Shown one piece after another: positions 13,521 through 26,362 of a stretch of DNA of 64,000 nt (its first letter is position 1; every line of letters begins with the position of its first letter). The position numbers and the translations under genes were made by a program. The notes beneath the pieces were generated by a model. That model made no database searches. It was not told the origin of the DNA and worked only from the letters and a program-made list of their open reading frames with translations. The DNA is from Cytophagales bacterium (lineage in GTDB: Bacteria; Bacteroidota; Bacteroidia; Cytophagales; Spirosomataceae): NCBI GenBank assembly GCA_013298215.1, contig JAAFKE010000016.1, forward strand, positions 1 to 64,000, given 5' to 3'.

Positions 13521-14375
13521 CTACATTTCAGTAGCTGCCACGACTGGTGTTGCCTCGGGTCTGATCTGCTGTTTTCGCACGGCGGCTCTACTCATTTCAA
13601 CCAGCGTCACAATTCCGACAATGACAATGCCCAATACGGCAGTCCAAGTGATAAAACGTTGGTAAACTTCGGCGTTGTGGCGGGCAATGATGATGCCAAC
13701 GAAAGCCCAGATAACGGCCAAACCCACATAAAAATTACGAACTTTGAGGACTGTAAGACTCGCAATCAAGGCGGCAGTCACAATCATGGCGCAGGTCCAA
13801 AACGACTCACTTTGGCCGCCGCCGTCCCAGCCAAAATGCACCAAAGCAGCCGTTGCATTGGCTACGGTTGCCACGCAGATCCAGCCTAAATAAACGCCAA
13901 AAGGTGCCTTAACGCCAAAACGTGCGCCTTTTGAAAGAAAAGGGGTAATGGTTTCGAGCCGCAAGTTGATGGCAATGAGCGAGGCCAAAAGGCCGAGCAT
14001 GACCAACACCGAAACCGCTTGGTATTCGAAGTGCCACGTCAAAATCCAGAAGGCATTGAGAAGGCACGAAATAATGAAAAAGGGCCCGACGGCCAGTACC
14101 ATTTCGGCGGTGTCGGGGTGGGGGGTGCTGCTAAAAATTGCTTTGCTTTGCCTAACACAAAACGCCAGAACCAACAGGTAGATAACGCCCCAAATGGCAA
14201 ATGTAATGGGCGCGGGAACGAATAAGTTGGGGTATTGATTGGATAATTCGCCCGTATTTTTGCCGTTGAGCGGCAGATAATTGGCTAAAAAATTGACAAA
14301 AATCATAAGCGCAAAAAATACCCAGTTCAGTATTTGAAGCGTTTTAACGGCCGTATTGTTGAGGAATGGTTTCAT
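13521..14375 (-). CDS. TspO/MBR-like (tryptophan-rich sensory protein-like) membrane protein
   Basis: A 284-residue protein with eight or nine hydrophobic segments. The N-terminal part has the pattern NFLANYLPLNG...PAPITFAIWGVIYLLV, which is shared with membrane proteins annotated as tryptophan-rich sensory proteins. The segment TWHFEYQAVS and several membrane Trp residues support this. Classical TspO has five helices, so this is a longer relative. The C-terminal 25 residues are cytoplasmic and rich in Arg, Ala and Val. It stands alone. The ligand and function are unknown. Confidence 0.6.
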   Translation of the reverse strand: MKPFLNNTAVKTLQILNWVFFALMIFVNFLANYLPLNGKNTGELSNQYPNLFVPAPITFAIWGVIYLLVLAFCVRQSKAIFSSTPHPDTAEMVLAVGPFFIISCLLNAFWILTWHFEYQAVSVLVMLGLLASLIAINLRLETITPFLSKGARFGVKAPFGVYLGWICVATVANATAALVHFGWDGGGQSESFWTCAMIVTAALIASLTVLKVRNFYVGLAVIWAFVGIIIARHNAEVYQRFITWTAVLGIVIVGIVTLVEMSRAAVRKQQIRPEATPVVAATEM

Positions 14376-16928: not shown

Positions 16929-18560
16929 ATGAGCGAAGACCAAAAAAGAGTATTAGAAACCCAACTTTGGAACGTTGCCAACACGCTGCGCGGCAAAATG
17001 AACGCCGACGAGTTCAGAGACTACATTCTCGGGTTTATTTTCTACAAGTATTTGAGCGAGAAAATGGAAATGTTTGCCGACGGAATTTTGAAGCAAGACA
17101 AAATAAAGTTTCGCGACGTAAACCCAACCATAGAAGACAGCCAAGATTACCTCGATGCCATTCAGGAAGAAGCCCTCGGAAAATTGGGCTATTTCTTGAA
17201 ACCCGAAGAACTGTTTGCCGAGGTTTCTAAAAGAGGAAACGGAAACGGGGACGAAATAGATTTGTTTGGCGCGTCAGATGGTGGCGGCGGCCGAACCAAT
17301 TTCATCATCGAAGACCTTCAAAAAATACTTACCAACATTCAGTTGAGTACGATGGGTACGGAGAGCGAGGAGGATTTTGACAACCTCTTTGAAGACATGG
17401 ACTTGAACAGTACCAAACTGGGCAAAAACCCCGAGGCCAGAAACGAGATTATTGCAAAGGTGCTGGCGCACCTCGACAAAATAGATTTTAAGCTCCACGA
17501 CACCGAGCTCGACGTATTGGGCGATGCCTACGAGTACTTGATTGGGCAGTTTGCGAGTGGCGCGGGCAAAAAAGCGGGCGAGTTTTACACCCCGCAAGAA
17601 GTTAGTAAGATATTGGCCAAAATTGTAACCACGGGCAAGCAAAAACTACGGTCGGTCTATGACCCAACCTGTGGCTCGGGGTCGCTGCTGCTGCGGGTGG
17701 CCAAAGAAGTAAAAGAACAGTCTGGTGGGTCGGTGAATGATTTTTACGGCCAAGAAATGAACCGCACCACCTACAACTTGGCCCGCATGAACATGATTTT
17801 GCACGGGGTGCACTACCGCCAATTTGACATCAAACAAGAAGACACCCTCGAACGCCCGCAGCACGTTGGCAAAACTTTTGAGGCCATTGTGGCCAATCCG
17901 CCGTTTTCGGCGCAGTGGAGCGCCAGCCCGTTGTTTATGAGCGACGACCGTTTTAGCCAGTACGGTCGGCTTGCCCCGAGCAGCAAAGCCGACTTTGCTT
18001 TTGTGCAGCACATGATACACCACCTGGCCGAAAACGGCACGATGGCGTTGGTGTTACCCCACGGCGCGTTGTTTAGGGGCGGAGCCGAGCAACAAATCAG
18101 AACCTACTTGATCGAAAACCGCAACTATTTAGATGCCGTCATTGGCCTGCCCGCCAATATTTTCTACGGCACGAGCATTCCTACTTGCATTTTGGTGTTT
18201 AAAAAATGCCGCGAAAACCCCGACGAGGTGCTGTTTATTGATGCCAGCCAACACTACGAAAAAGTGAAAACGCAGAACATTTTGCGTGCCGAACACATCG
18301 ACAAAATAATTGATGCCTACCGCAACCGCACCGAAACGCCCAAATATAGCCGCAGGGTGGCTCTGCGTGGCAACAACAGCATTGCTGCAAACGACTACAA
18401 CCTCAACATTCCGAGGTACGTGGACACTTTTGAGGCCGAAGAAAGCATAGACATTGAGGGCATTGCCCAAAAAATAAAAGCCTTAGATGCTCAAATGCGC
18501 GACACCGACCAAACCATTGCCGCTTTTTGTGCAGAGTTGAACATTGAAACGCCTTTTTAG
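16929..18560 (+). CDS. hsdM: Type I restriction-modification DNA methyltransferase subunit HsdM
   Basis: N6-adenine methyltransferase of 543 residues. An N-terminal HsdM helical domain (about 1-145, starting LETQLWNVANTLRGKMNADE) is followed by the catalytic domain with SAM motif I DPTCGSGSLLL from residue 245 and catalytic motif IV NPPF at 323-326. It would pair with HsdS and HsdR encoded further downstream. The final residues NIETPF end in a 17-bp DNA segment that recurs after the next gene. This is the first gene of the island and has its own promoter. Confidence 0.96.
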   Translation: MSEDQKRVLETQLWNVANTLRGKMNADEFRDYILGFIFYKYLSEKMEMFADGILKQDKIKFRDVNPTIEDSQDYLDAIQEEALGKLGYFLKPEELFAEVSKRGNGNGDEIDLFGASDGGGGRTNFIIEDLQKILTNIQLSTMGTESEEDFDNLFEDMDLNSTKLGKNPEARNEIIAKVLAHLDKIDFKLHDTELDVLGDAYEYLIGQFASGAGKKAGEFYTPQEVSKILAKIVTTGKQKLRSVYDPTCGSGSLLLRVAKEVKEQSGGSVNDFYGQEMNRTTYNLARMNMILHGVHYRQFDIKQEDTLERPQHVGKTFEAIVANPPFSAQWSASPLFMSDDRFSQYGRLAPSSKADFAFVQHMIHHLAENGTMALVLPHGALFRGGAEQQIRTYLIENRNYLDAVIGLPANIFYGTSIPTCILVFKKCRENPDEVLFIDASQHYEKVKTQNILRAEHIDKIIDAYRNRTETPKYSRRVALRGNNSIAANDYNLNIPRYVDTFEAEESIDIEGIAQKIKALDAQMRDTDQTIAAFCAELNIETPF

Positions 18561-19687
18561 GGTATCACCTTCCTGACGTTAGGAAGATGAATTGTAGTAA
18601 ATATTGAGATAAAATAACGACAATGGAATTGCAAAATAACATATATCACGACATTCAGTCGCTCATAGCAACGGCTCGAAACAGCATTGTTAGATCAGTA
18701 AACTGGGCAATGGTTACTGCGTATTGGGAAATTGGAAAACGAATAGCCGAAGAAGAACAAAACGGAGCCGAAAGAGCTCAATATGGTAGTTATTTGATCA
18801 AAAATTTGGCAATACAACTCACCAACGAATTTGGTAAAGGGTTCGATGACAGAGAATTACGAAAGATGCGACAGTTTTATTTTACATTTCCAATTCGGGA
18901 CGCACTGCGCCCCGAATTGAGCTGGTCGCATTACCGTTTGTTGATGAAAATAGAAAACAAGGAAGCCAGATTTTTTTACTTATCCGAGTCTATTGAAAGT
19001 GCTTGGAGTACCCGACAACTTGACAGGCAAATAAATGCTGCCTATTACGAAAGATTCATTATCAGTAAAAATAAAAATGTACTCAAAAAAGATGCCAACG
19101 CTGTTATAGAAAACCTACCTGCGAACGAATTTTTGAAAGACCCCTTTGTACTGGAGTTTTTGGACATCAAAGCAGAAAATTATTTGGAACAAGATTTGGA
19201 AAATGCAATCTTAAACAACCTTCAAAACTTTATATTAGAGCTGGGAAAAGGATTCTCGTTTGTAGCACGCCAGCAACGAATCACTACCGACGCTGGCAAA
19301 CATTACAAAATTGATTTGGTATTTTACAATTATTTATTGAAATGCTTTGTGTTGATAGACCTCAAAATAGGTACGCTCACGCCACAAGACGTGGGGCAGA
19401 TGGATATGTATGTGCGGCTGTACGAACAACAAAAAAAACCAGTTGGCGACAATCCTACCTTGGGTATTATTCTTTGTTCGGAGCGGGACGATACGGTTGT
19501 GAAATTTTCGGTATTGAACGGAAGCGAGCAGCTTTTTGCCAGTCAATACCAACTGTATTTACCATCACAAACTCAACTTAAAGACTGGGTGAACCAACAA
19601 AGGCTTTTTTTGGCACTTAAGAATGAAAATTGAGCATGAAAAAGAATACAACAAAAAATAAAACCTTTGGCATTGAAACGCCTTTTT
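18542..19687 (+). repeat. 17-bp direct repeats flanking the DUF1016 gene
   Basis: CATTGAAACGCCTTTTT occurs at 18542-18558 (the last codons of hsdM) and again at 19671-19687. The second copy also encodes IETPF followed by a stop, in an open frame from ATG 19636 that has no other similarity to HsdM. The pair brackets the DUF1016 gene. This looks like a footprint of gene insertion or recombination at the hsdM 3' end. Confidence 0.7.
18623..19633 (+). CDS. DUF1016/YhcG-like PD-(D/E)XK nuclease-domain protein
   Basis: A 336-residue protein with the DUF1016 N-terminal domain (about 8-150: VNWAMVTAYWEIGKRI, LSWSHYRLLMKI) and a C-terminal PD-(D/E)XK nuclease-like domain. The putative active site is D231 in KIDLVFYN and D246-L-K248 in LIDLKIG. 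These proteins occur commonly next to type I restriction genes, and a nuclease role in defence or recombination is proposed for the family. It uses more A/T-rich codons than hsdM, which suggests separate acquisition. A truncated paralogue is encoded at 20799. Confidence 0.9.
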   Translation: MELQNNIYHDIQSLIATARNSIVRSVNWAMVTAYWEIGKRIAEEEQNGAERAQYGSYLIKNLAIQLTNEFGKGFDDRELRKMRQFYFTFPIRDALRPELSWSHYRLLMKIENKEARFFYLSESIESAWSTRQLDRQINAAYYERFIISKNKNVLKKDANAVIENLPANEFLKDPFVLEFLDIKAENYLEQDLENAILNNLQNFILELGKGFSFVARQQRITTDAGKHYKIDLVFYNYLLKCFVLIDLKIGTLTPQDVGQMDMYVRLYEQQKKPVGDNPTLGIILCSERDDTVVKFSVLNGSEQLFASQYQLYLPSQTQLKDWVNQQRLFLALKNEN

Positions 19688-19701
19688 GAAACAATAGACC
19701 A

Positions 19702-20220
19702 ATGAAATATCCAAGAAAACTGTCGTCGGGGGCTAACAATACGGTCATCGTGCTTTCAGATACCGAGGTGGCCAAACTATTTACCGAAGATACGCGCTCT
19801 GACATTGGCTCGGAAGCCAAGAAAATGAAGTACGCCAATGCGGTCAATGGGTTGATGGTCAAGTTTGTTCGGTTGGAATACAACGACGATTTGGCGGCTG
19901 AAATGCTCGTGATGGAGCGACTGAAACCGTTTGATTTTCGGGCTTACGAAGTCGAAATACGGACTTTGTGGTACTCCGTTTTTGAAGACGAATTGACGGC
20001 TTTGCACCAGGCGGGTTTTGTGCACCGCGACCTCAAACGCCCTTCTAACATCGGCGGGGCGGCCTTTGATAATATCCTTTTGACCGAACAAGGCTTGCGC
20101 CTCATTGATGCGGGTATTTCGGCTTTGCGGGAGGAGGTGAACCAAAAAATATTTGATAAATACCTTGAAATAGAGCAAAACGAGATGCTTTTGTTTAAAG
20201 ATTACTTTTTGAATCGGTAG
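19702..20220 (+). CDS. Compact protein-kinase-like protein
   Basis: Only 172 residues, yet it carries most kinase landmarks: a nucleotide loop SSGANNTVI (8-16), the probable ATP Lys25 in EVAKLF, the helix-C Glu38, the catalytic loop HRDLKRPSN (108-116, Asp110 and Asn116) and LIDAG with Asp136 in place of DFG. Most of the usual C-lobe is missing, so it is either a minimal kinase or a degenerate one. It is in the type I locus, between the two DUF1016 genes, and starts 14 bp after the duplicated hsdM tail. The substrate is unknown. Confidence 0.7.
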   Translation: MKYPRKLSSGANNTVIVLSDTEVAKLFTEDTRSDIGSEAKKMKYANAVNGLMVKFVRLEYNDDLAAEMLVMERLKPFDFRAYEVEIRTLWYSVFEDELTALHQAGFVHRDLKRPSNIGGAAFDNILLTEQGLRLIDAGISALREEVNQKIFDKYLEIEQNEMLLFKDYFLNR

Positions 20221-20251
20221 TAGGATTTTACTCATGGCATGACTGACAATG

Positions 20252-20798
20252 TGTCTGAACTATGATTTTGAATGATTCTTTTGATTTTTATGAAACGGTT
20301 AATCAAATACAAGTAATTTTAGGAATGCATTCCAAAACCAATTGAATCAAAAAAATCACAGTTAGGACAAATGATAAACCAACAATACAAATATTCTGAA
20401 TTGACTTCTAAAATTATTGGTTGTGCAATGACGGTTCATAAAGCACTGGGCAATGGTTTCCAAGAGGTGATTTACCAGAGAGCGTTAGAAATCGAAATGA
20501 GTTTAGTTGGAATCGGATTTAATAGAGAATTTGAGATGCCTATATTTTACAGAGAACAACAGATTGGCACAAGAAGAGTTGATTTTTTGGTAGAAGGTTT
20601 AATTTCTGTGGAACTAAAAGCCGTAATAAAATTGGAAGATGTCCACTTTGCACAAGCAATCAACTATTTAGAAGCCTATAATTTAGAAATAGGGTTATTG
20701 ATAAATTTTGGAGAAACAAGTTTGAACTTTAAAAGACTGACAAATAAGAAATTCAAATCAGTGTAATCAAATTAATCAAAAAAATCATAGTTCAGACA
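20252..20798 (+). mobile_element. Inverted-repeat cassette carrying a GxxExxY gene
   Basis: TGTCTGAACTATGATTTT at 20252-20269 is the reverse complement of the right end (AAAATCATAGTTCAGACA, 20781-20798). A third, slightly diverged copy of the right-end sequence lies at 20345-20369, directly before the gene start, so the left side alone can fold into a hairpin. The cassette encloses only the GxxExxY gene. It encodes no transposase, so any movement would be in trans. Its right end abuts the truncated DUF1016 gene. Confidence 0.7.
20371..20766 (+). CDS. GxxExxY family protein (PD-(D/E)XK-like)
   Basis: A 131-residue protein with the family signature G29-x-x-E32-x-x-Y35 (GFQEVIY). The segments RRVDFLVEG and VELKAV carry the D and E-x-K of a PD-(D/E)XK nuclease fold. 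The family is widespread and often found in multiple dispersed copies in Bacteroidota; its function is not established. It is A/T-rich against its neighbours and lies wholly within the inverted-repeat cassette, so it is probably an autonomous passenger and not part of the restriction system. Confidence 0.9.
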   Translation: MINQQYKYSELTSKIIGCAMTVHKALGNGFQEVIYQRALEIEMSLVGIGFNREFEMPIFYREQQIGTRRVDFLVEGLISVELKAVIKLEDVHFAQAINYLEAYNLEIGLLINFGETSLNFKRLTNKKFKSV

Positions 20799-21545
20799 TT
20801 GACGTTTGCAATTTCCGAAACAGCGTCTCGGAAATTACAAACGCCTGAATTTCAGCTAAGTTGGTCGCATTATTTGATGCTGATGGGCATAAAAGAGTTG
20901 GACGAGCGGAGGTTTTACGAAATTGAGTCTGTTGAAAACAATTGGAGTTTGAGGGAGCTAAAACGACAATACAACGCGGGCTTGTACCTGCGCTTGGCAC
21001 TCAGCCGAGACAAGGCAGCAATAAAACAACTGGCCGAAAAAGGACAAATTATTGAGAAAACCAGCGACATCATAAAAGACCCCTACATTTTGGAGTTTTT
21101 GCAATTGGAGACCCAGCACCAGTATTCTGAAAATGATTTAGAGACGGCTTTGGTGGACAAACTCGAGCATTTTTTGTTGGAACTCGGCAAGGGTTTTACG
21201 TTTGTGGCCCGCCAAAAAAGAATTACTTTCGACGAAAAGCATTTTTATATTGACTTGGTGTTCTATAACCGCTTGCTGGCGTGTTTTGTGCTGATTGATT
21301 TGAAAATTGGCGAACTACACCACCAAGACCTCGGCCAAATGCAAATGTATGTGAACTATTACGACCGTTTTACGAAATTAGAAACCGAAAACAAAACCAT
21401 TGGCATTATCCTTTGCCAAAAAAAGAGTGATCTGGTGGTAGAAATAACATTGCCCGAAAACAACGACCAAATATTTGCGAGCCGCTACCAAACCGTGCTG
21501 CCAAGCAACGAGCAACTGCGCCAACTCCTCATCCAAACCCCCTAA
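20799..21545 (+). pseudogene. N-terminally truncated DUF1016 nuclease paralogue
   Basis: The 248-residue frame (TTG start at 20799) matches the DUF1016 protein at 18623 from its LSWSHY segment to its end, including IDLVFYN and LIDLKIG, but lacks the first ~100 residues of the N-terminal domain. The truncation point is exactly the right end of the GxxExxY cassette. No matching N-terminal fragment is left on the other side. The nuclease part is intact, so a shortened product may still be made. A 15-bp imperfect inverted repeat (20804-20818 and 20828-20842) at its start may hinder translation. It ends 3 bp before hsdS. Confidence 0.7.
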
Positions 21546-21548
21546 ACC

Positions 21549-22766
21549 ATGAACAAACAAAACAACGTACCCGCCCTCCGTTTTCCCGAATTTACGGGTG
21601 AATGGGAAATGAAAAAATTGGGGGAAGTGGCGGACAAAATTAATAGTGGAAAAACCCCGTTAGGAGGTGAAAGTGTTTATACCGAAAGCGGTATCGTTTT
21701 TATCAGAAGCCAAAATGTTACAGATGACAAATTAGATTTAAGCAATCTAACTTTTATTCCAGAAAAAATAAACGGTGGAATGAAAAACAGTATTGTGAAG
21801 GCGAACGATATTCTGCTAAATATTACAGGCGCATCTTTGGGAAGAAGTTGCGTTGTTCCAAATGAATTTAAGACTGGAAATGTGAATCAACACGTTTGTA
21901 TTATCCGTTTGAACTCAGAGAATAATCCTAGATTTATCCAGCCAATATTTTCATCTTCAAAAGGTCAAAATATTTTTGAAAGTTTACAAACAGGAAGCGG
22001 TAGAGAAGGTTTAAATTTTGAGAGTATCAAAAAAATGGAACTCTCCTTCCCCACCCTCCCCGAGCAGACCAAGATTGCCAATTTTTTGACGGCGGTTGAT
22101 GAAAAACTGCAAGGTCTCAAAAAGAAAAAGGCATTGTTGGAGGTCTATAAAAAAGGGGTCATGCAGCGGTTGTTTTCGCAAGCATTGCGGTTTAAAGATG
22201 AAAATGGAAAGGCGTTTGCGGAGTGGGAGGTTAGGAACGGGAACGAAATTTTTGAAAGTATTTCTAACAAAGAACATAACTCTGACCTACCGATATTAGC
22301 AATTTCTCAAGAGTTTGGTGCAGTACCAAGAGAAATGATAAACTATCAAATCTCTGTAACTGATAAAAGTGTTGAAAGCTATAAAGTTGTTGATGTCGGA
22401 GATTTTATTATCAGTCTTAGGTCTTTTCAAGGAGGAATTGAATACTCAAATTATAAAGGAATATGCAGTCCAGCTTATGTCATATTGCGAAATATCGTTT
22501 CAATAAATCATATCTTCTTCAAATATTATTTAAAGACAGATTTGTATATTCAACGATTATGTGAAAAATTGGAGGGAATAAGGGACGGTAAAATGATAAG
22601 TTATAAATACTTTTCAGAGATTAAATTACCGTATCCCACCCTTGCCGAGCAGGTCAAGATTGCCAATTTTCTATCGGCGATTGATGACAAAATAAACCAG
22701 ACCGATATACAAATCCAAAAAACCGAACAATGGAAACGGGGATTGTTGCAAAAAATGTTCCCGTAG
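21549..22766 (+). CDS. hsdS: Type I restriction-modification specificity subunit HsdS
   Basis: Target-recognition subunit of 405 residues with two target recognition domains (about 15-165 and 225-375), each followed by a conserved helical spacer. The spacers repeat the pattern PTL-x-EQ-x-KIANFL-x-A-x-D, and the DNA encoding them is nearly identical over about 50 bp (22050-22102 and 22635-22687), a route for domain exchange. The recognition domains are A/T-rich against the rest, as usual for swapped hsdS modules. The stop codon is immediately followed by the first REP. Confidence 0.94.
   Translation: MNKQNNVPALRFPEFTGEWEMKKLGEVADKINSGKTPLGGESVYTESGIVFIRSQNVTDDKLDLSNLTFIPEKINGGMKNSIVKANDILLNITGASLGRSCVVPNEFKTGNVNQHVCIIRLNSENNPRFIQPIFSSSKGQNIFESLQTGSGREGLNFESIKKMELSFPTLPEQTKIANFLTAVDEKLQGLKKKKALLEVYKKGVMQRLFSQALRFKDENGKAFAEWEVRNGNEIFESISNKEHNSDLPILAISQEFGAVPREMINYQISVTDKSVESYKVVDVGDFIISLRSFQGGIEYSNYKGICSPAYVILRNIVSINHIFFKYYLKTDLYIQRLCEKLEGIRDGKMISYKYFSEIKLPYPTLAEQVKIANFLSAIDDKINQTDIQIQKTEQWKRGLLQKMFP
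22050..22687 (+). repeat. Internal direct repeats in hsdS spacer regions
   Basis: Two copies of about 53 bp at 22050-22102 and 22635-22687, encoding PTLPEQTKIANFLTAVDE and PTLAEQVKIANFLSAIDD, differ at few positions. They flank the second recognition domain. Confidence 0.7.
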
Positions 22767-22984
22767 GGGCCAGCCCTCGTGGCTGCCCCTGTGATGATTG
22801 TGATGAAAACAACAATAAAAGGGCAACCACAAGGGATTGCCCCGACGGGGACGACGACAACAACCGCGTAAGGGCCGCCCTCGTGGCTGCCCAAAAACAA
22901 CGATGAACAAAAACAAAAACAACAATAAAACAACAACAACAACAACGATGACAACGATAACAGGGCGACCACAAGGGTCGCCCC
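22766..22984. repeat. Array of four REP palindromes upstream of RAYT
   Basis: Four G/C-rich imperfect palindromes at 22766-22789, 22821-22843, 22872-22892 and 22963-22984 share the cores CCCTCGTGGCTGCCC or its inverse form GGGC-r-ACCACAAGGG. They alternate in orientation (forward, inverse, forward, inverse), forming two REP pairs (BIME-like), separated by AAC-rich low-complexity DNA. The last ends 32 bp before the RAYT start. REPs paired with a RAYT are the expected substrate of that enzyme family. Confidence 0.85.
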
Positions 22985-23016
22985 GACGTGACGAAAAATA
23001 ACCATACTTCTTTAAA

Positions 23017-23538
23017 ATGAATCAATACGACCCAAATATTCACCACCGACGCTCCATCAGGCTGAAAGGATACGACTATGCCCAGGAAGGACTCTATTTT
23101 ATAACAATGTGCGTACAGCATCGGGTATCTTTGTTCGGCCACATTGCCAAACCCCAAAACAATGCCGATGCCCAAATGACCTTGAATGAGGCGGGTAAGA
23201 TGATCGAAACCGAATGGCTGAATCTGAAAAATCGGTACCCAAACATCGAACTGCACGAGTTTGTGATAATGCCCAATCATTTTCACGGAATTTTAGAGAT
23301 TGTCGATGTTGGGGAGACTGTCGGCAACATGATGGGCGCGTTCAAATCCATTACCACCGTAGAATATATTCGTGGCGTAAAAAACGGGGGCTGGCAAACG
23401 TTCAACGGTAAATTGTGGCAGCGAGATTATTACGAACACATTATTCGGGACGAACGCGCCTACGAAAACATCTCAAATTACATCATAAACAATCCCACAA
23501 AGTGGGCAGCAGACACATTTTATGGCCAAGCAATCTGA
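23017..23538 (+). CDS. REP-associated tyrosine transposase (RAYT, Y1/HUH family)
   Basis: A 173-residue Y1 transposase related to IS200. The HUH metal motif is HFH (H88, H90) in MPNHFHGI, and the catalytic Tyr is Y138 or Y139 in RDYYEHIIR. These single-strand nucleases cleave REP sequences, four of which lie just upstream. Unusually, its last 17 bp overlap the start of hsdR, so the RAYT unit is embedded between hsdS and hsdR and its translation is linked to that of hsdR. Confidence 0.93.
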   Translation: MNQYDPNIHHRRSIRLKGYDYAQEGLYFITMCVQHRVSLFGHIAKPQNNADAQMTLNEAGKMIETEWLNLKNRYPNIELHEFVIMPNHFHGILEIVDVGETVGNMMGAFKSITTVEYIRGVKNGGWQTFNGKLWQRDYYEHIIRDERAYENISNYIINNPTKWAADTFYGQAI

Positions 23539-26362
23539 AGCAGTATTAGAAGAACAACTCATTGCCCAGCTTCAAAAGTTGGGGTACGGCCTGGTGGCCA
23601 TCAAAGACGAAACGGCGTTGATTGCCAACCTAAAAACGCAGTTAGAGAAGCATAACAATTTTAAGTTTTCCGAAAAAGAGTTCAATCAAATTCTGAATGA
23701 ACTGAGCAAAGGCTCGGTATTTGAAAAAGCAAAAACGCTGAGGGGCAAACTGTTAGTGAGGTTAGACAACGGCCAAACAAAGCATATAGAACTACTAAAC
23801 ACCGAGCATTGGTGCCAAAACCAGTACCAAGTAACGCACCAAGTGAGCCAAGAAGGCACCTACAAAAACCGCTACGATGTAACAATTCTTATCAACGGCC
23901 TGCCATTGGTACAAATAGAACTCAAACGCCGAGGTTTAGAAATAAAAGGGGCGTTCAACCAGATTAATCGCTGCCAAAAACATAGCTTTGGGTCGGGTAG
24001 TGGCTTGTTTCAGTACGTACAAATATTCGTTATCAGCAACGGCGTAAACACCAAGTATTTCAGCAATTTTGGGTCGAACCAGCAAGATTTTTTGCAAACT
24101 TTCTACTGGACGGACGTAGAAAACAAGCGGCTTTCAGACATTCAAAACGGCTTTACCGATGCCTTCTTGGAGCCGTGCCATTTGAGCAAAATGATCTGCA
24201 AATACATTGTGCTGCACCAGGGTACAAAATCGCTGATGGTGCTGCGTCCCTATCAGTTTTATGCGGTAGAGGCCATCGTAAACAGCGTAAAAACCAACCA
24301 GCACAACGGCTATATTTGGCACACCACGGGCAGCGGCAAAACGCTCACGAGCTTCAAAGCCAGCCAAATATTAATGGCATTGCCAGGGATGAAAAAAGTG
24401 GTTTTTGTGGTAGATAGAAAAGATTTGGACTACCAAACCAGCCATGAGTTCAACGAATTTAGCGAAGGAAGCGTAGATGCAACCAGCAACACCAACGATT
24501 TAATTAAAAAATTTAACGACCCCAACACGCCCTTAATCGTTACGACGATTCAAAAACTAAACAATGCCGTGAGCGCTGCCAACGCCAAAAAAATGGCCGA
24601 CCTGCAACACCAAAAAATGGTTTTTGTGTTTGACGAGTGCCACCGCAGTCAGTTTGGCGAAACGCACCAAAACATCGTTGGCTTTTTTAAGAACATACAA
24701 TTATTTGGTTTTACGGGCACGCCTATTTTGGCCGAAAACGCCCAGGGCGAAATGACAACCGCCTCATTGTTTGGCAATTGCCTGCATAAATACGTCATTA
24801 CCGACGCCATCAGAGACGAAAATGTGTTGAAGTTTTCGATAGAATACATTCGCACTTTCAAACAAAAAGACGAGATAATAGACATAAACGTAGAGGCCAT
24901 CAACGAGCAGGAAGTGCTGCAAGCCCCGCAAAGGCTCAACAACATTGCCGATTATATTATTCAGCATTACAGTCAAAAAACGAGTAACAATGCCTTCAAC
25001 GCCATGTTTTGCGTGGCGGGCATCGATGAGGTGATTATGTACTACGAAATTTTTAAGAAAAAGAAACAAGCAGGACTGCACAACTTGAAAATTGCGACTG
25101 TATTCAGCTACGCCGCCAACGAAGACGAAATGAAATATGACATTGCCGATGAGCTGTCGGTGGTAGAAGACCCCAAAGCCTTGTATGGCATGAAGCCGCA
25201 CCGAAGAGAAAAACTCGACGAGTACATTGCCGATTACAATGCGATGTTCAACACGCCATTTTCTACCAAAGACAGCCAAAGTTTCAACAATTATTACAAC
25301 GATGTTTCTAAAAATACGCGGGCCAAAGAAATAGATATTTTGTTGGTAGCCAATATGTTTCTGACGGGCTTTGATGCCAAAAATGTGAACACGCTGTTTG
25401 TAGATAAAAACTTGCAATACCACGGCCTCATCCAAGCATTCAGCCGCACCAACCGTATCAACGGGATTCAGAAAACGCAGGGCAACATTGTGTGTTTCAG
25501 AAACTTAAAAGAAAAAACCGACGAAGCCATCACGCTTTTTAGCAACAAAGAGGCCATTGCCGAAATAACGATGAAGCCCTACGAAAGCTACGTCGAAGAA
25601 TTTAACGAGGCCGTAGCAATACTTCTGCAAATAGTGCCAACCGTGGCCAGCGTAGATGATTTGCAGAGCGAAGACGATGAGTTGGCATTTGTGAAAGCGG
25701 TAAGAAATTTGATGCGCTTGCACACTAAAATGAAACACTTCAACGAGTTTAGTTTCGCTGATTTTGACGTGGAAGAACAAACCTACTCACACTACATCGG
25801 CAAGTACCAGGACTTGAAAGACAAGGTGAATCGGGAGAAAGGCAAAGACAAAGCGTCTATTTTAAACGACGTGGACTTTGAATTGGAGCTGATCCACCGC
25901 GACGACATCAACGTGGCCTATATTATTCAGCTCCTGATAAAACTAAAATCGGTACAGCCGAAAGATGTTTCGACTCAACAGGCCGAGCAAGAAATATTTA
26001 ATTTACTAAACACCGAAACGACCCTGCGCAGCAAGCGAGAACTGATAGAACGCTTCATCAAAGAGCATTTGCCAGCAATTGCCGACACCGACGACATCCA
26101 AAACGAGTTTGATAAATATTGGGGCGAAGCCCGACAAAAAGCCTTTACGCAATTGGTGAGCGAAGAAAATTTATCTGCCGAAAAAACAGAAAAGCTAATC
26201 GAAGATTATTTGTTTACCGAAAGAACGCCCCTCCGCGACGAAGTACTGGCATTGGTGGCGGGCGAAAAACCAGGGCTCTTGCAGCGCAAAGGATTGGGCG
26301 ACAGGATTTTACAGCGGATTACCGATTTTGTAGAAACATTCATAAACGGCATGGCGGTGTAG
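23522..26362 (+). CDS. hsdR: Type I restriction endonuclease subunit HsdR
   Basis: Translocating restriction subunit of 946 residues. The N-terminal nuclease has D119 and E133-L-K135 (IELKR). The helicase region has motif I TTGSGKT (K273) and motif II DECH (371-374), then TGFDAKNVNTLF and QAFSRTNR of later helicase motifs. A C-terminal helical domain for docking to the methyltransferase follows. All key residues are intact, so the subunit should be active with HsdM and HsdS. It begins inside the RAYT gene and ends before a strong terminator. Confidence 0.96.
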   Translation: MAKQSEAVLEEQLIAQLQKLGYGLVAIKDETALIANLKTQLEKHNNFKFSEKEFNQILNELSKGSVFEKAKTLRGKLLVRLDNGQTKHIELLNTEHWCQNQYQVTHQVSQEGTYKNRYDVTILINGLPLVQIELKRRGLEIKGAFNQINRCQKHSFGSGSGLFQYVQIFVISNGVNTKYFSNFGSNQQDFLQTFYWTDVENKRLSDIQNGFTDAFLEPCHLSKMICKYIVLHQGTKSLMVLRPYQFYAVEAIVNSVKTNQHNGYIWHTTGSGKTLTSFKASQILMALPGMKKVVFVVDRKDLDYQTSHEFNEFSEGSVDATSNTNDLIKKFNDPNTPLIVTTIQKLNNAVSAANAKKMADLQHQKMVFVFDECHRSQFGETHQNIVGFFKNIQLFGFTGTPILAENAQGEMTTASLFGNCLHKYVITDAIRDENVLKFSIEYIRTFKQKDEIIDINVEAINEQEVLQAPQRLNNIADYIIQHYSQKTSNNAFNAMFCVAGIDEVIMYYEIFKKKKQAGLHNLKIATVFSYAANEDEMKYDIADELSVVEDPKALYGMKPHRREKLDEYIADYNAMFNTPFSTKDSQSFNNYYNDVSKNTRAKEIDILLVANMFLTGFDAKNVNTLFVDKNLQYHGLIQAFSRTNRINGIQKTQGNIVCFRNLKEKTDEAITLFSNKEAIAEITMKPYESYVEEFNEAVAILLQIVPTVASVDDLQSEDDELAFVKAVRNLMRLHTKMKHFNEFSFADFDVEEQTYSHYIGKYQDLKDKVNREKGKDKASILNDVDFELELIHRDDINVAYIIQLLIKLKSVQPKDVSTQQAEQEIFNLLNTETTLRSKRELIERFIKEHLPAIADTDDIQNEFDKYWGEARQKAFTQLVSEENLSAEKTEKLIEDYLFTERTPLRDEVLALVAGEKPGLLQRKGLGDRILQRITDFVETFINGMAV

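Follow-up and report, generated by a model that had tools for sequence, protein, structure and literature searches.

How does a RAYT gene (TnpAREP), preceded by its own array of REP sequences, come to lie between hsdS and hsdR of a type I restriction operon, and does its position there mean anything beyond this one locus? We consider the question for the window, by which we mean the whole stretch of 64,000 nucleotides that was analyzed (G000:C8:1-64000), which comes from a genome of 3.55 Mb in 65 contigs. The main finding is the wider pattern, in that subclass 2.4-like RAYTs recur inside type I operons.

The restriction operon and its RAYT-REP unit

To judge from its sequence, the window operon (Table 1) is a type I restriction-modification system, with HsdM, an HsdS with two target domains, and HsdR all present. 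The gene order is hsdM, a cargo in which a weakly kinase-like ORF and a GxxExxY gene stand between two YhcG/DUF1016 genes, hsdS, four REPs, the RAYT, and hsdR. The hsdR start at 23522 is credible because the HSDR_N domain identified with Pfam begins at residue 3. The cargo genes resemble the RAYT in being co-directional and placed between hsd genes, although the RAYT differs from them in being a Y1 HUH nuclease with repeats of its own. We also note that the second YhcG gene within the cargo (18623-21545) has an incomplete DUF1016_N part.

Table 1. Coordinates of the features discussed (window positions unless a locus is named)
Feature	Position	Strand	Remarks
hsdM	16929..18560	+	N6_Mtase, HsdM_N; TIGR00497 above cut-off
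hsdM-hsdS cargo	18623..21545	+	YhcG/DUF1016 nuclease, weakly kinase-like ORF, GxxExxY nuclease, second YhcG
hsdS	21549..22766	+	Methylase_S, two stretches; stop TAG inside REP1 foot
REP1	22763..22789	+ from foot	core 22767-22788 (pattern strand -); GTAG foot
REP2	22821..22846	- from foot	core 22821-22842 (pattern strand +); GTCG foot; inverted partner of REP1
REP3	22868..22892	+ from foot	core 22871-22892 (pattern strand -); GTAA foot, degenerate
REP4	22963..22987	- from foot	core 22963-22984 (pattern strand +); GTCG foot; inverted partner of REP3
RAYT / TnpAREP	23017..23538	+	173 aa, open; subclass 2.4 motifs NHFH, WQ, YIINNP; no internal REP
RAYT end / hsdR start overlap	23522..23538	+	17 bp; RAYT Phe-Tyr codons TTT TAT and the next G contain the hsdR ATG
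hsdR	23522..26362	+	HSDR_N, SWI2_SNF2, T1R_D3-like, EcoR124_C; TIGR00348 above cut-off
Second type I operon	L304:142-7466 (G000:C1)		open-frame REPs within each of hsdM, RAYT, hsdS and hsdR, plus repeat array

The RAYT product matches Pfam Y1_Tnp PF01797 (E 9.5e-8, 32.6 bits) above the cut-off of 23. Against NCBIfam REP_Tyr_transpos its 74.9 bits fall just below a cut-off of 80, which is one curated threshold and not a defining trait of subclass 2.4, and the 22.4 bits against the IS200 family model NF033573 (cut-off 55) do not place it in IS200/IS605. The motifs PNHFHG, WQ, and YIINNP are present, with H88, H90, and Y155 invariant across 24 aligned rows; those of subclass 2.4 are given in the available text of PMC6006769 as NH[IFV]H, WQ, and YIxNNP. 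By its motifs, REPs, and relatives we assign the predicted protein to RAYT/TnpAREP subclass 2.4. It shares with the subclass 2.4 REPtrons described in that text the same motifs, occurrence in Bacteroidetes, and GTAG-type REPs beside the gene, although it differs from them in the lack of an internal REP. The suggestion in an earlier note on this DNA that the RAYT may have come under selection within the locus finds no support for this copy, whose synonymous sites proved saturated relative to the nearest relatives in a dN/dS comparison.

The earlier note had also described four REPs in alternating orientation upstream of the RAYT, and a pattern scan bears this out, with four cores found against 0.05 expected and four reached in 0 of 100 shuffles; the array begins at 22763, however, rather than at 22766 as had been proposed. 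Read from the GTAG-type foot, the orientations are +, -, +, and -, so that the array (22763-22987) consists of two inverted, REPIN/BIME-like pairs, each of which folds into a single long hairpin (z -4.1 and -4.5), with the single REPs folding at z of -3.2, -1.6, -1.4, and -3.5. Within 1 kb of the RAYT, REP1 has the GT[AG]G-type foot (GTAG), and REP3 (GTAA) and REP2 and REP4 (GTCG) are off this consensus. The hsdS stop codon TAG (22764-22766) sits in the REP1 foot, and the window HsdS ends in Phe-Pro, the ends of eight orthologues being Phe-Val (six), Phe-Cys (one), and Phe-Ile (one). The terminator-like sites predicted across the REPs belong to the minus strand, and thus hsdR transcription is not expected to end there.

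Recurrence of RAYTs inside type I operons

The layout described earlier, with the RAYT in the operon, co-directional, and overlapping the hsdR start by its last 17 bp, is as we find it, and the proposal that the gene was inserted between hsdS and hsdR is supported by orthologous junctions. A search of 194 genomes of the order for hsdR gave matches in 32, and 30 loci were read; 16 loci besides the window, with at least 60% identity to the window HsdR start region, were taken as orthologues. In five of the 16, hsdS stands immediately before hsdR with no RAYT (gaps of 1, 1, 20, 64, and 138 bp), and other ORFs lie between the two genes in further orthologues. The opposing possibility raised in the earlier note, that the RAYT is an ordinary long-standing neighbor of hsdR, is not borne out, since just one of the 16 (L264) has a RAYT; a count over 30 hsdR loci with 1.5 kb flanks likewise gave one RAYT. 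Judged by eye, the L264 RAYT is of another group, resembling that of L059 and not that of the window. In the genome of L264, at L305:2922-3856, hsdS is cut short after an internal REP, a RAYT follows, and the hsdR start codon reads ACG.

The first sign that the window has counterparts was the presence of hsd genes beside four window-RAYT relatives (L044, L049, L054, and L057, among 29 loci, L038-L066) and beside the second RAYT of the window genome itself (L036); a second search with the window RAYT showed restriction-modification (RM) genes at two of 24 loci (L070 and L075). A profile of 24 RAYTs matched in 133 of 296 Bacteroidota genomes, and because six of the 24 sequences were already RM-linked, the top survey ranks are enriched in RM-linked RAYTs. 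The surveyed loci are those of the matches listed, namely the best-scoring 99 (the first 102 rows) and 47 more, 146 in all with tandem copies merged; the window locus is outside this set, the second RAYT of its genome (L093) is inside it, and L190 is an extra locus that is not counted. Hsd genes were flagged with HMMs grown from the window HsdM, HsdS, and HsdR at 23 of the 99 loci. Three candidates were rejected as type I, L140 with a methylase that scores best against BREX PglX, below cut-off, L161 with no NCBIfam match, and L096 with only a methylase, near a contig end; L103 was kept, despite an HsdM that is below the hsdM cut-off and scores slightly better against MAD2. With the doubtful loci dropped, at least two Hsd genes are present at 20 of the 99 and hsdR at 19. 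Together with four of the other 47, hsdR lies within about 4 kb at 23 of the 146 listed RAYT loci outside the window, a count that includes L308, where hsdR is 1.6 kb away with an opposite-strand gene between, and leaves out L338, L354, and L357 (of the 47), with HsdM or HsdS matches and no hsdR. Pfam searches of 66 Hsd proteins (from the 20 loci, L096, and six earlier loci) gave SWI2_SNF2 23 times, Methylase_S 23 times, HSDR_N 21 times, and N6_Mtase 20 times.

Chance proximity, calculated from hsdR counts per genome and genome size, would give 0.49 of 99 loci with hsdR, and never more than six in 200,000 draws. Within 1.5 kb flanks, any Hsd gene is found at 22 of 99 RAYT loci, a count that still includes L096 and L140, as compared with 0 of 30 for IS200/IS605 (p 0.002) and 0 of 23 for a more distant group of Y1 transposases found with the L063 protein. 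The window alone, with a RAYT in one of 16 other orthologues, would fit a chance insertion without wider meaning. However, the enrichment over density and over the two control transposase sets, with a roughly 40-fold excess that sampling bias would otherwise have to explain, and the presence of a RAYT in both of the HSDR_N-bearing operons of the window genome make such an insertion highly improbable as the explanation. Those two operons account for both matches of PF04313 in the genome, the domain being in the window HsdR and in the L304 HsdR.

The RAYTs linked to RM genes also differ from the others in how they are fitted to their neighbors. The next gene is co-directional and within 15 bp for 14 of 20 RM-linked RAYTs as compared with 3 of 79 others (p 6e-10), and overlaps by 4 bp in 8 of 20 versus 0 of 79, where the 79 include L096, L140, and L161. 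A 4-bp overlap is a usual layout of coupled translation. All Hsd genes are on the RAYT strand in 19 of the 20 operons, the exception being L175, in which one extra hsdS is reversed. The position of the RAYT varies, the order hsdS, RAYT, hsdR being commonest, with hsdM, RAYT, hsdS in L093 and L044, and hsdS, RAYT, hsdM in L106. We also note several tandem, partly broken RAYT copies between hsdM and hsdS at L132:3976-5534, and RAYT 5' parts that flank hsdR on both sides at L156 (4091-4242 and 7985-8136; 152 bp, 97% identical).

The neighbors of the 76 unflagged RAYTs are varied and largely housekeeping among the best 25 families listed per search, with AhpC-TSA the commonest of the downstream families listed (7 of 73). 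Defense genes are few, with Cas3 and mad3 upstream of two each (of 68; best 25 of 119 families listed), and a type III REase, a type II REase, and Cas6 downstream of one each (of 73; families listed). At L102:1394-5378 (the L048 region) a YhcG nuclease gene lies further downstream of the RAYT, and the upstream ORF is Cas3 helicase-like by eye. Three genomes of one genus (L111, L117, and L123) have kept a close RAYT copy between like-sized neighbors (495-503 and 559-562 aa), in the manner of a long-standing resident.

One reading of this arrangement is that the RAYT-REP unit has a working role in restriction, either as a spacer and coupled cistron by which HsdR is delayed or tuned with respect to HsdM and HsdS, or as a nuclease that aids defense. 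In its favor, the gene after the RAYT is hsdR at 14 of the 20 linked loci, often with the 4-bp overlap, and a small number of other RAYTs are found beside other defense genes (Cas3, mad3, type III REase, type II REase, Cas6). However, the RAYT takes different positions in the operon, most of the hsdR loci examined have no RAYT (one of 30 with 1.5 kb flanks; one of 16 other window orthologues), and the L264/L305 unit coincides with the shortened hsdS and the ACG-read hsdR start, and we consider a working role of this kind rather unlikely.

A tree of 113 RAYTs, 28 of them labeled RM and with L096 and L161 still among these, requires 20 label changes as compared with a shuffled mean of 25.1, a value as low being reached by 1 of 500 shuffled label sets. 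At least 11 of the changes are required by starred branches, the stars being less reliable with the quick tree method used, and gain and loss are indistinguishable among the label changes. The RM-linked RAYTs are thus mildly clustered but scattered in this tree, and they are not one lineage. The window RAYT is placed beside the unlinked L190, L067, and L077 and the linked L092, without starred support.

Local REPs and the second operon

The earlier note had suggested that shared REPs elsewhere would show the window RAYT to be active, and had named their absence as a test of its own claim; a search of the genome found none of the window type beyond the array, and active spread of this type there is not supported. 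Across the whole 3.55 Mb, the 22-mer pattern has two matches and its 15-mer core four, all in the array, the 22-mer with one mismatch allowed has three, also all within the array, and the 88 matches to the 15-mer core at two mismatches are background, given 76 for the reversed control. What is present is a local array and not the many dispersed genome copies by which a REPIN or BIME is recognized, and the window REPs are therefore REPIN-like and do not form a REPIN population. In other genomes, relatives of the window RAYT have REPs of the window type within or next to the gene. In G150, G201, and G168 such REPs are also present at a distance, on different contigs or far away on the chromosome, and G055 and G253 have no such distant copies. 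In four genomes that have RM-linked RAYTs (G000, G253, G187, and G081) the REPs found were solely at the RAYT locus, and G055, in which the RAYT is not RM-linked, likewise keeps its REPs local; the double-foot REP pattern has no match in G168, G044, and G224, and is uninformative for these genomes.

A protein search finds two RAYT genes in the window genome, and the profile search gives three matches with one place among the matches listed, which could reflect a third RAYT or a split match. The second RAYT lies between hsdM and hsdS of the other operon with a 4-bp overlap with hsdM, is of another clade than the window RAYT, and is placed by similarity alone, having no Pfam match at 1e-5. Downstream of it a REP core is repeated about nine times in units of 33 bp, and this array contains a short run of N. 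All 12 genome copies of this core (up to two mismatches) are in C1:9676-11556, related REPs at 13617 and 13821 are inside hsdR of the same operon, and no REPs of these kinds were found outside that operon in the window genome.

In the second operon, REPs are read in open frame as peptides at HsdM residue 544, RAYT residue 104, HsdS residue 218 (between the halves), and HsdR residues 426 and 494. The HsdR REP residues are in part or wholly absent in two to three homologues. The HsdS linker with the REP has 29 residues, as compared with 29, 30, and 36 in three homologues, and homologues of HsdM have a linker of like length, which indicates that the REP replaced or overgrew a linker in these two proteins and did not lengthen it. 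Of 30 operons with a RAYT, four have REPs within hsd genes (nine REPs, of which four are degenerate and one is in a shortened hsdS), as compared with none of 57 hsd loci without a RAYT, although the contrast of nine to zero is unmatched, the loci without a RAYT being mostly hsdR ends and those with a RAYT holding all three genes. Two short palindromes in L152 and L188 were rejected as REPs and attributed to chance.

A second reading is that RAYT-REP units are resident diversifiers that introduce REP peptides in frame into all three hsd genes, including between the HsdS target domains, and so yield new enzyme variants. According to the available text of PMC3874165, the number of TAEL repeats in the conserved HsdS domain D1 of EcoR124 sets the gap of the recognized site, and the second-operon HsdS REP resembles the TAEL repeats of EcoR124I/II described there in being a short in-frame repeat unit between target domains. 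The REP peptide differs in that it stands at the border of the second half with the linker not lengthened, and the window hsdS has no such peptide. A changed site spacing is not indicated, the linker being no longer than in three homologues, and for this reason we rate diversification lower and think it quite improbable.

Origin and meaning of the association

In the strain pair G061/G066, a 3.8 kb block that is 99.4% identical begins about 12 bp ahead of hsdR. Immediately upstream of this block, identity is 87.5% in the RAYT, and the side toward hsdS has been rearranged; dS is 0.55 for the RAYT versus 0.022 for hsdR. The pattern points to a replacement at the joint, which could have occurred by recombination or by renewed insertion. 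A broader proposal is that the RAYT serves as the joint of exchanged hsdS cassettes, with recombination between RAYT or REP copies swapping the upstream specificity module and hsdR staying in place. The identity step, the dS values, and the rearranged hsdS side favor it, although they come from one pair only, and another RAYT of the same two genomes has no step, with 93.9% identity throughout. Fast evolution of RAYT proteins has also been reported (available text of PMC2817692), though it is unable to explain the dS. We regard cassette exchange as possible but unlikely.

Our first choice, and one that we think probable, is that type I operons are repeatedly colonized by REP units, as guests that run in the operon direction and do not disrupt it. 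In the window, a REPtron, consisting of a subclass 2.4 RAYT and its REPs, would have entered the operon at the hsdS/hsdR junction in the operon direction; the RAYT would be transcribed with the operon, and ribosomes finishing it would restart on hsdR. The RAYT may cut and join REPs as single strands, with copies landing mostly nearby. Type I operons could be favored because a co-directional guest at a junction does little harm and travels with an often-transferred locus. Against colonization by guests are the RM-linked members of the search profile, the drop in RM rate down the ranking, from 19 of 99 to 4 of 47, with an intervening gene in one of the four (L308), and the counts obtained with the window RAYT alone, 4 of 29 loci plus the second RAYT of its genome and 2 of 24. 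Either REPtron movement or homologous recombination would fit the present sequence data. A plasmid or phage origin was rejected, with one matching RAYT record each, that on the plasmid away from restriction genes and that from the phage unannotated; viral contigs gave four relatives, and the plasmid and phage results give no help to the idea of a vehicle.

The REPs of the Marinomonas REPtrons Ma and Mb are likewise concentrated near tnpAREP, which was interpreted as recent arrival and local multiplication in the available text of PMC8266576, although Ma and Mb are of other groups and the word 'restriction' is absent from its main text. The same source describes RAYTs as domesticated transposases whose behavior is closer to that of housekeeping genes, and the available text of PMC6006769 states that there is no evidence of RAYT mobility. 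We found no report of RAYTs in restriction operons among the titles and abstract openings listed by literature searches, which had bioRxiv and most subscription journals outside their scope. The strong and repeated link of RAYTs to a single kind of operon offers a way to study how they spread and by what they are maintained, and it predicts co-transcription of the RAYT with hsd genes and local seeding of REPs into restriction subunits. For the annotation of restriction systems in Bacteroidota, it means that REP-derived peptides in HsdM, HsdS, and HsdR may be overlooked.
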